From IMG/VR virus record IMGVR_UViG_3300042475_003280, positions 1 to 31,410 of that record: a stretch of 31,410 nucleotides of DNA. The stretch is one strand, 5' to 3'. This document shows, piece by piece, positions 5,791 to 31,410 of the stretch (position 1 is the stretch's first letter; each line of letters opens with the position of its first letter). The DNA is from a virus. The notes beneath the pieces are model-generated. The model was not told where the DNA came from, made no database searches, and saw nothing but the letters and a program-made list of their open reading frames with translations. The position numbers and the translations under genes were made by a program.

Positions 5791-6676
5791 TCAAGAGCAA
5801 CGCACTAAAAATAATCCATTAGTACTTGGTACTTTTGATCAGCTTTCGCTGCGTTATTTACGTGGTAATCTTGGTGCAAAGTACCAAGTAAAAACCAACG
5901 GGTTTGGCGGCGGTACTTATAACAATTGGTTCCAGGTCAATCTTTCAGCACCTGCTTGGATCATTGTTACCAAAGGGCCGCCGCGCCCTACATATATCAA
6001 CGTCAGTGTCTATGATCTCAACAACATCCCTCAGACAGATCTGCCTGTGTTCCAGGCTGATTCACTGACTGATGGTATCAACAATCTAGGAGATGTGTAC
6101 ATTCCTTACCTCAATACGGTAATGAGTGTTCAATCCGATCTTTACAACACCTTTGATAGGTTGCGTCTTGATCGTGGTGATGACCGATACTTTCCTTTAG
6201 GCGTTGGCAGCTATTTAATTTGTATTTCGTCTACACGCAACGAACCCCTTAATTACGAAGTTGGTGTTGTTATCGAGCCTGCTTCTACCGCTCAAGAAGT
6301 ATATTGGGAACTAGAAGACGTAGATGGCAGCGTTGTACTACAAGAGTACACGATTGATGTAGCAGAGATTGTTAGTCCTGTAGACACTGCAGTTATTATT
6401 CCTTCCAATGGAGGTGCATTCACTGAAGCTCTTTGTGTTATTGAATCTCCAGGGGGGAGTGTTACTGTTGGTACCAACTCCACATGGTTAATTGGTACGC
6501 GTATTCCAAGTGGCAATATCAATGATTTCAAGATAGAACTAGAGCCTGGTGATGACGCATACTACGATACTATTCATGACCACTCATTGTCAGATTGGCA
6601 AGCTGCTTGGAGTCGGGAACATCAAGATACCGATCGGTTCCCTGAGGTCTTTATTCCGTTAACAAACAGACCATGA
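5768..6676 (+). CDS. Probable virion structural protein
   Basis: About 302 residues, with no enzyme motif recognised. The protein is acidic and rich in beta-type sequence (VNLSAPAWIIVTKGPPRPTY, YLICISSTRNEPLNYEVGVVI) and ends with a conserved-looking DHSLSDWQAAWSREHQ segment. That composition suits a tail, baseplate or appendage protein, but this is inference. The frame is open upstream to 5735; ATG 5768 is preferred because it shortens the overlap with the preceding gene to 23 bases. The stop overlaps the ATG of the next small gene (ATGA). Confidence 0.6.
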   Translation: MPRNSVVSQEQRTKNNPLVLGTFDQLSLRYLRGNLGAKYQVKTNGFGGGTYNNWFQVNLSAPAWIIVTKGPPRPTYINVSVYDLNNIPQTDLPVFQADSLTDGINNLGDVYIPYLNTVMSVQSDLYNTFDRLRLDRGDDRYFPLGVGSYLICISSTRNEPLNYEVGVVIEPASTAQEVYWELEDVDGSVVLQEYTIDVAEIVSPVDTAVIIPSNGGAFTEALCVIESPGGSVTVGTNSTWLIGTRIPSGNINDFKIELEPGDDAYYDTIHDHSLSDWQAAWSREHQDTDRFPEVFIPLTNRP

Positions 6677-28784: not shown

Positions 28785-28810
28785 AAAAAACCCCTGGTTT
28801 CCCAGGGGTT
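28785..28810 (-). terminator. Rho-independent terminator
   Basis: On the minus strand AACCCCTGG pairs perfectly with CCAGGGGTT around a GAAA tetraloop; together with the last stem T residues this gives a run of six T. It follows the HhH gene (28827-29258) and separates the capsid group from the genes downstream. Confidence 0.85.
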
Positions 28811-30133: not shown

Positions 30134-31291
30134 TCAGATGTTGCCGTCATCTTGGATGAAACTGAACGCAGTGGTGATGAAATCGGTGTTAAGGATTTCG
30201 AAACCAGCGTACAGTTGCCAAATCAGAATGATGAAGCGGCTAAAGTCGTCGTTGTTGTTGATCAGCACCTGAGCATTCGGGCCGCCGATACCAACGCCAA
30301 CGGCTTGAGGACCAAAGAAGTAACCTTGTGCAACTTCACGAGAAGCATAGGTACCACCAGTGCCATCAAAGGAAGCACTGATGCTCTTGCTTGGGAAGTT
30401 GGTCGATTCGAAGAACTTCACACCTTCGAACTGAACGCCGGTCGGCATCACAGGTTCACCAGCCAGGAAGTAACCTTGACCAGCCTGGGGACCCATGTAG
30501 AAGCTGGCGTTGTTAGGCATCATGGGATTACCCATGTACATGCCTTGACCAGGGTTACCAGCGTAACGTGCAATCTCACGGAAGTCAGGATCACGACGCA
30601 GGTGCATCATGAAGACGGGATCGCAGATGCAACGATACAGACCATCAGAGAAGGTCGGAACGTTACGCTTACGCAGGTCCTTAACAACGTTCAGCAGGTC
30701 GGTACGAACCTGGAATTGCTGAACATCGGCAGTGTACTCAGTGGCGGTATAAGCAATACGACCAGAGGAATCTTTGGTCTTACCACCAGCAAAGTAATAA
30801 CCCCCTTGCGAAGTAGAGGCGGCGCCATTGGCTTCAGCTTTGGCGAGTTCATCAAGGAACACGCGGTCACGCCAACGGCGATAGTCGTCAAGCAGCGTTA
30901 AGCTACCGATCGACTGGTGGAACATGTTAAGGTTGCCAGAGTCCAGAAGAAGACGCTGGGCCGTAATCAGGGTCTCACGAGCAATCTTGAAGGTCGAAGG
31001 TTGAGTAGGATCACCCGGGTCCGCAGGGCCGGTGTATTCCTTCAGCACAACAAGCACCTTCTCTTTGGTGATGTTGCGGCTGTTGGCAGTACCGATGGTC
31101 TGGTCGGACACACGCTCACGGCTGTCCTTGGTACCAGGGGTACCCCAGAACTTATAGCGATCTAACTGAACGGTTTGACCAGGCTGCCGAGTAAAGTCGT
31201 GAACGACCACAGGCTCGACTGCCATTTCTGCGATGTACGCAGGGTGGGGACGGTAAAGTTCCGCACCTAAAATCTTGGGAAAATCGTTCTC
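30134..31291 (-). CDS. Major capsid protein, 3' exon (partial)
   Basis: A protein with features of an abundant phage shell protein: high-quality codon use, long charged helical part (LLDDYRRWRDRVFLDELAKA) and YRCICDPVFMMHLRRDPDFR. The first ATG is 31225, but the frame stays open and protein-like upstream for 22 codons (ENDFPKILGAELYRPHPAYI, then AE), reaching an in-frame TAA at 31309-31311. No good start codon lies in that stretch. The upstream bases have group I intron elements, so 31291 is taken as close to the 3' splice site and the first exon should lie beyond the window. ATG 31225 would be a truncated start. Capsid identity rests on composition and gene order. Confidence 0.75.
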   Translation of the reverse strand, partial: ENDFPKILGAELYRPHPAYIAEMAVEPVVVHDFTRQPGQTVQLDRYKFWGTPGTKDSRERVSDQTIGTANSRNITKEKVLVVLKEYTGPADPGDPTQPSTFKIARETLITAQRLLLDSGNLNMFHQSIGSLTLLDDYRRWRDRVFLDELAKAEANGAASTSQGGYYFAGGKTKDSSGRIAYTATEYTADVQQFQVRTDLLNVVKDLRKRNVPTFSDGLYRCICDPVFMMHLRRDPDFREIARYAGNPGQGMYMGNPMMPNNASFYMGPQAGQGYFLAGEPVMPTGVQFEGVKFFESTNFPSKSISASFDGTGGTYASREVAQGYFFGPQAVGVGIGGPNAQVLINNNDDFSRFIILIWQLYAGFEILNTDFITTAFSFIQDDGNI

Positions 31292-31410
31292 CTGGTCTCT
31301 AGTTTCTTAGAGGGGTGGACTATCTCTTCATCCCTGTGGGATGCCGGACGCTAAATCTGGTATTACGTAACAAGATCGTGTTACACCCAGTAGTCTCTGC
31401 ACCTTCCAAT
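31292..31410 (-). ncRNA. 3' part of a group I self-splicing intron in the capsid gene
   Basis: On the minus strand the order of elements is as expected for a group I intron. The R element GTGCAGAGACTA lies at about 31391-31402. A six-pair hairpin at 31367-31384 may be P7.1. P8 is CATCCC-ACA-GGGATG at 31329-31343. Then come J8/7 and the S element GAAGAGATAGTCC at 31317-31329. GACTA (31391-31395) pairs with TAGTC (31318-31322) to give P7. P9 is CTCTA/TAGAG at 31297-31312. The intron should end at a G near 31291-31292. The 5' half, including P1-P6, is outside the window. P7.1 placement suggests subgroup IA, common in phages, but this is tentative. Confidence 0.8.

Follow-up and report, generated by a model that had tools for sequence, protein, structure and literature searches.

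The window, by which we mean the whole 31,410-nucleotide stretch of the IMG/VR virus record IMGVR_UViG_3300042475_003280 that was analysed, ends on the right inside what is very probably a mobile, IA-like group I intron; the insertion follows codon 4 of the gene that probably encodes the major capsid protein in a phage of the S-EIV1 lineage (phages of freshwater Synechococcus). The phage itself is probably a freshwater cyanophage. The original prediction, that a group I intron interrupts the (probable) capsid gene, was borne out by a match to the Rfam family RF00028 in the window and by the whole intron in ten of ten intron-bearing relatives searched (carriers, in what follows). The P3-P6 core and the 5' exon, which it placed upstream of the window's sequence, are present at the expected position in relatives, the window's contig ending before them. 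Two refinements can be added from the comparison of relatives, in that the 5' exon has only 12 nt of coding sequence and the full element carries a putative HNH endonuclease gene in antisense.

The match to RF00028 (Intron_gpI) lies at 31410-31296 on the minus strand (38.0 bits, E 6.4e-8, model positions 129-253) and is cut at its 5' side by the end of the contig. It was obtained with cmscan at an E-value threshold, so that the Infernal check proposed with the original prediction gave a match below the gathering cut-off; at that cut-off (50 bits) the window has no RF00028 match, and a search of the window's own record for the intron reported none, because only half of the intron is present. 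P7 (GACUA/UAGUC), the 3' strand of P3, P8 and P9 follow one another in group I order on the minus strand, and the P7 helix and the P8 and P9 hairpins that had been predicted were all located there. The features are as follows.

30134..31288, minus strand: probable major capsid gene, 3' exon of 384 codons plus stop (PHROG 1357; S-EIV1; codon constraint)
31285..31288, minus strand: AACG, the 4 nt that open the 3' exon, predicted to pair with the guide CGUU in P10 (guide in relatives)
31289..31410, minus strand: 3' part of the group I intron, from the 3' strand of P6a to the terminal G at 31289 (RF00028; complete in relatives)
31297..31312, minus strand: P9 hairpin CUCUA-AGAAAC-UAGAG, strands 31312-31308 and 31301-31297 (compensatory changes in relatives)
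31318..31322, minus strand: P7 3' strand UAGUC, pairing with GACUA at 31395-31391
31329..31343, minus strand: P8 hairpin CAUCCC-ACA-GGGAUG, strands 31343-31338 and 31334-31329
31344..31349, minus strand: P3 3' strand GUCCGG (partner CCGGAU in the 5' half of relatives)
31357..31390, minus strand: P7.1 (CUGG/CCAG) and P7.2 (GUAAC/GUUAC) extension between P7 and the 3' strand of P3 (alignment of relatives)
31391..31395, minus strand: P7 5' strand GACUA (RF00028 match and inspection; compensatory change in a second clade)
28785..28808, minus strand: terminator-like hairpin CCCCTGGGAAACCAGGGG followed by six T, after the third gene counted from the capsid gene on

The intron end at 31289 was set by comparison with intronless alleles, and the 5' part lies beyond the contig end; the guide and the endonuclease gene are known from relatives, the window's own half showing neither. 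L004, with 98% exon identity, is the closest relative of the window. The same base of the intron core is the contig break in the window (31410), in L044/L083 (one contig) and in L162, and the break of L117 is one base off. This shared point is most plausibly a break in assembly, in sequence common to many strains, rather than a genome end, because other contigs run through that base.

The interrupted gene is identified by the 363-aa protein that starts at ATG 31225 and matches the PHROG 1357 major head protein (residues 10-353, E 3.5e-17) over most of the capsid protein's length. At E 1e-5 the phage collection yields a single match, to the Synechococcus phage S-EIV1 (87.3% identity), where the gene is preceded by a putative terminase large-subunit gene and followed by one for an M23 peptidase. 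The Pfam family Phage_capsid_3 scored below its cut-off against the protein, and structure prediction gave a pLDDT of 29.6. We therefore regard the product as the probable major capsid protein, an identity resting on one profile match. In the S-EIV1 record (KJ410740; L081 5851-7077) the capsid gene has its GTG at locus position 5926 and a frame reaching 7077, and it is not annotated as such; what the record lists at this site is AHV82227.1, an ORF on the opposite strand, and AHV82228.1, a C-terminal fragment.

Reading the insertion site requires the relatives without the intron. The best 80 IMG/VR loci with capsid relatives were kept, 78 of which include the N-terminus of the query's capsid protein; the intron motif is present in 15 of these 78 informative loci and absent from 63. 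In those 63 and in S-EIV1 the frame is joined across the site and continues upstream as far as a GTG, which GGAGG precedes by 10 nt. An in-frame stop sits 2-3 codons before the GTG, which is for that reason the first possible common start. A homologue starting at the equivalent of ATG 31225 was looked for and none was found, all 64 intronless alleles running on to the GTG 75 nt upstream. Intronless alleles read GTG TTY MTY GAY | AMY; carriers read GTG TT(T/C) (A/C)TT GAT followed by AGCTAG and, 256-827 nt on, ...G followed by AAC GAY TTY CC. This comparison places the intron after codon 4, with the 3' exon starting at 31288 and the intron ending at 31289. The coding 5' exon thus comprises only 12 nt (e.g., GTG TTT ATT GAT), and the first four capsid codons of the window's gene lie beyond the contig end. 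The exon bases from -4 to +4 are TGAT|AACG in 112 of 112 places with both sides readable, among 113, and GGAGG stands 10 nt before GTG in 112 of the 113 carrier places. The intron accordingly lies inside the translation start region, and this position is the unusual part of the arrangement.

In carriers searched for the complete element, RF00028 matched over its full length in 10 of 10, with 87.8-96.6 bits against the cut-off of 50. Both junctions could be read in 113 places (73 distinct introns; some contigs are counted more than once), where the intron measures 821-827 nt in 105 and 256-281 nt in 8; a looser pattern recovered 83 distinct exon-intron sets in 127 places, including one of 325 nt (L237), and 117 viral contig stretches have the 3' junction. 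Each of the 73 distinct introns contains a single copy of the octamer CGUUGUCA. Within this octamer, GUCA can pair with the UGAU that ends the 5' exon (P1), with a U-G pair at the splice site, and CGUU with the AACG that opens the 3' exon (P10); judged by this fit to both exons, CGUUGUCA is the predicted internal guide. In group I introns the terminal U of the 5' exon pairs with a G of the internal guide. The further rule that U ends the 5' exon and G ends the intron, as given in the LittleE report (PMC3706429), holds in 112 of 112 readable places for the U and in 113 of 113 for the G.

Conservation of the fold argues in the same direction. With the endonuclease gene removed, standard pairs occupy 4205 of 4222 cells in 64 distinct sequences, against 27-41% when the partners are slid by 1-3 positions; a single member (L204) served to define the helices, a choice that gives them an advantage over the slid controls, and the compensatory changes are independent of it. 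P1, P3, P4, P7 and P10 have standard pairs in all 64, the unpaired cells being a few in P2, P7.1, P7.2 and P8, and changes on both sides of a helix are seen in P2, P6a, P7, P7.2 and P9. A second intron clade (L220, L227, L237) has GGCCA/UGGUC in place of GACUA/UAGUC in P7, a compensatory replacement. The P7.1 and P7.2 stems are both present in most of the relatives' sequences. Such an extension is typical of subgroup IA, and we call the intron IA-like on this basis.

Three other structural readings were set aside. A P1 formed by the 5' exon with a GUUCAG just downstream was rejected, since GUUCAG pairs with CUGAAC (one compensatory change); Rfam's own placement of P2 over this stretch was not followed; and tandem introns, suggested in L227 and L237 by a second CGUUGUCA, were rejected, since the extra copies fall within the capsid reading frame. 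No riboswitch family scored above cut-off in the window or in the carriers searched. Matches to the intron core, with 70-92% identity over at most 68% of its length, were found in 16 phage records, two of them in terminase genes of Vibrio phages.

Whether the capsid protein depends on splicing turns on the codons between the intron and ATG 31225. The original prediction counted 22 coherent codons there; their coding character was upheld and their number was not, as there are 21 (AAC 31288 to GAA 31226), the GAG before them being the last three bases of the intron. With saturated pairs dropped, mean dN/mean dS over these codons is 0.025 in carriers (70 distinct sequences, 1884 usable pairs) and 0.024 in intronless alleles (84 sequences, 2010 usable pairs), and none of the sequences in either set has a stop within them. 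The 21 codons are coding, because the constraint in carriers equals that in intronless alleles. In 154 of 155 carrier places the intron has no ATG, GTG or TTG after its last in-frame stop, and from this absence together with the constraint it follows that the codons are translated in carriers from the GTG beyond the intron. Unspliced RNA read from that GTG gives VFIDS-stop (99) or VFLDS-stop (13) in all 112 readable places, so that the full-length capsid protein would need splicing. We infer splicing from this codon constraint rather than from RNA of known origin, and the earlier suggestion that the capsid protein is made only after splicing is supported to that extent.

One intronless contig, L340, is a candidate in this respect. 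It is 2520 nt long, begins 52 nt upstream of the GTG and ends with the stop codon of the third gene. Carriers supply all seven of the 3' exons closest to its own (10-17 differences in 1150, the nearest intronless exon having 46), and its 60-bp 5' flank is identical to that of its nearest carriers. Five whole contigs shorter than 3 kb among the loci (L001, L014, L109, L320, L340) end within about 45 nt before the terminator-like hairpin, as transcripts would, while their other ends vary: L001 begins 38, L014 221, L320 142 and L340 52 nt before the GTG, and L109 inside the intron. The samples they come from have the IMG taxon numbers 3300037682 (L340), 3300004787 (L001), 3300024570 (L014), 3300012764 (L109) and 3300012520 (L320). 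L340 may be a natural spliced transcript or an intron-free allele; its carrier-like flank alone does not decide between the two, because the L028 group shares such a flank.

Antisense to the capsid gene, all 77 distinct long introns contain an open frame of at least 189 codons, in which an HNH_3 domain (E 3.4e-10 in L004) was recognised along with a weak helix-turn-helix. Its median dN/dS is 0.097 (range 0.029-0.189; 384 usable of 400 random pairs drawn among 74 sequences, three without the anchor motif having been dropped), values that show strong purifying selection on the predicted gene. The gene has its stop codon among the intron's first bases and starts close to the stem preceding the guide, and thus sits in the loop of P1. 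Short introns without an intact HNH gene occur in 8 of 113 places; L237 keeps only a remnant of the gene's start, so that at least one short form arose by loss. A search for HNH relatives in the genome-contig collection gave 21 stretches that fit a pattern, none confirmed, and three promoter-like sites were found near the antisense gene against 3.1 expected by chance. If expressed, the gene would add antisense RNA over the capsid start region.

The distribution of the intron among capsid alleles bears on its mobility. On a capsid DNA tree of 80 sequences (78 loci, S-EIV1 and the window), no fewer than 8 changes are needed to account for the 16 carriers, well supported branches forcing 7 of these, and the carrier label is more clustered than expected by chance (none of 500 shuffles was as low). 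The window and L004 stand beside the intronless L003 and L001, separated from them by paths as short as 0.025 and 0.031 changes per site. Most of the carriers compared share 97-100% identity over the 60 bp that precede the insertion, despite differing exons; sister intronless alleles with nearly the same exon show 55-75% identity over this flank. An exception is L059, whose flank is 70-77% identical to those of the compared carriers other than L060, and the flank of the intronless L028 is carrier-like (98.3% to L004).

Taken across the whole set, 56 of 122 carrier places are testable, having an intronless exon within 8 of 200 differences. The flank of the nearest intronless allele differs at 15-31 of 60 positions in 52 of them, and for the remaining four the nearest is L340. 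In 41 of the 56 places (23 of 32 without duplicates) the flank is shared to within 1 of 60 by a carrier whose exon is quite different; the other 15 have no different-exon carrier with a close flank (5-15 of 60 differences). Two pairs of one carrier and one intronless allele, L208 with L259 and L158 with L301, show no difference in the first 200 nt of the 3' exon and yet have different 5' flanks. A carrier-like flank occurs in 6 of 167 intronless places (four contigs: L340, L028/L285, L034/L316 and L036), and all of these except L340 have GAC at the site. A Fisher test value was set aside, since the search patterns that defined carriers had determined part of the exon. The pattern fits homing with co-conversion of the 5' flank, mostly if not always, together with some losses or donors.

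Five intronless alleles (L027, L028, L034, L036 and L037) have GAC instead of GAT at the insertion site, three of them with the carriers' 5' flank. The change is silent and would deprive the splice-site U-G pair of its U; these are possibly sites that lost the intron and became resistant.

Other explanations for these data deserve to be weighed. A relic core that no longer splices, with the capsid protein made from ATG 31225 or another downstream start, would agree with the lack of a splice product of known RNA origin, with the existence of an ATG opening a 363-aa frame and with TTG, a possible weak start, at codon 7 in 20 of the 70 distinct carrier exons. It is nevertheless very improbable given the intact P1, P3, P4, P7 and P10 in every distinct sequence, the compensatory changes in P7 and the equal constraint on the 21 pre-ATG codons in carriers and intronless alleles; moreover, the first six exon codons, upstream of any TTG, read NDFPKI (63) or NDFPKL (7) in all 70, from 16 DNA sequences. 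An intron that is real but vertically inherited and often lost, with the HNH gene as a passenger, seems quite unlikely to us. The HNH-less forms in 8 of 113 places with the L237 remnant, the clustering of carriers on the tree and the six intronless places that keep the carriers' flank, as after loss, are what it would lead one to expect; the strong purifying selection on the HNH gene, the two pairs with the same exon start and different flanks, and the flank shared by different-exon carriers in 41 of 56 places speak for movement instead.

The position of the intron raises a further alternative, namely that it is a regulatory switch controlling capsid translation from within the ribosome start region. 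The 5' splice site comes 12 nt downstream of the start codon's first base, and the footprint of a starting ribosome covers a splice site so placed; the GGAGG and the stop after five codons are, as described above, nearly or wholly invariant (112 of 113 and 112 of 112 readable places). Yet the sequence data hold no condition-dependence, 63 of the 78 informative relatives among the best 80 loci live without the intron, and a homing target accounts for the position equally well, so that we consider such a switch unlikely. Translation start on unspliced RNA and formation of P1 would be mutually exclusive; that the phage uses the resulting contest between ribosome and ribozyme for timing is a suggestion we make tentatively and with considerable doubt. 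The original idea that a splice step could tie capsid production to infection state is neither supported nor contradicted by the sequence comparison.

Under the preferred reading of a mobile, splicing intron, the capsid transcript would fold so that the guide GUCA holds the end of the 5' exon with a U-G pair at the splice site, a guanosine would attack after GAU, and P10 (AACG:CGUU) would help to join the exons into GTG TTT ATT GAT AAC..., from which the full capsid protein is read. Unspliced RNA would meet a stop after five codons and yield no capsid protein, and ribosomes would be kept out of the intron core. When phages share a cell, the HNH protein made from the opposite strand would cut or nick the intronless site, and repair would copy the intron together with about 60 bp of the 5' flank.

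The nearest precedent by description is the mycobacteriophage LittleE, already known to have a capsid intron with an endonuclease gene in antisense. According to its description (PMC3706429), LittleE has a probable group I intron of about 820 bp in its major capsid gene with a bottom-strand endonuclease frame inside; it was found in one of six phages of its group, and splicing was demonstrated by RT-PCR and protein sequencing. The differences lie in the endonuclease, likened to LAGLIDADG in the text and called HNH in a figure legend, in a junction past the capsid-processing site and thus deeper in the gene, and in the Mycobacterium host. The same source cites an intron in the capsid-subunit gene of the lactococcal phage Tuc2009, likewise a capsid-gene intron (PMC3706429). 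The freshwater cyanophage Pf-WMP3 also has an HNH-bearing group IA2 intron, with splicing and nicking by the HNH endonuclease I-PfoP3I shown there, although the host gene there encodes DNA polymerase (PMC3428280); the present HNH protein had no tblastn match (E 1e-5) in a collection of 50,697 phage records, which may not include Pf-WMP3. Group I introns in the photosystem gene psbA are described for the cyanophages S-PM2, where the endonuclease gene is free-standing beside psbA, and S-CBWM1, where it lies within the intron (PMC3428280, PMC8557907). In Clostridium difficile a c-di-GMP riboswitch works with a group I intron whose splicing acts, as may be the case here, on the translation start region of a gene, but it is ligand-controlled and located in the 5' UTR (PMC3984707), whereas no riboswitch family is above cut-off here. 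Within the open-access literature, in so far as its text was available, we found no description of capsid introns in cyanophages or of introns at such a position in the start region.

These observations point to a common mobile intron, without a description that we could find, which probably interrupts the gene for the main virion protein of a freshwater cyanophage lineage. Its intron-bearing, intronless and endonuclease-less forms constitute a natural allele set, and would offer a clean system for the competition between splicing and translation start in bacteria.
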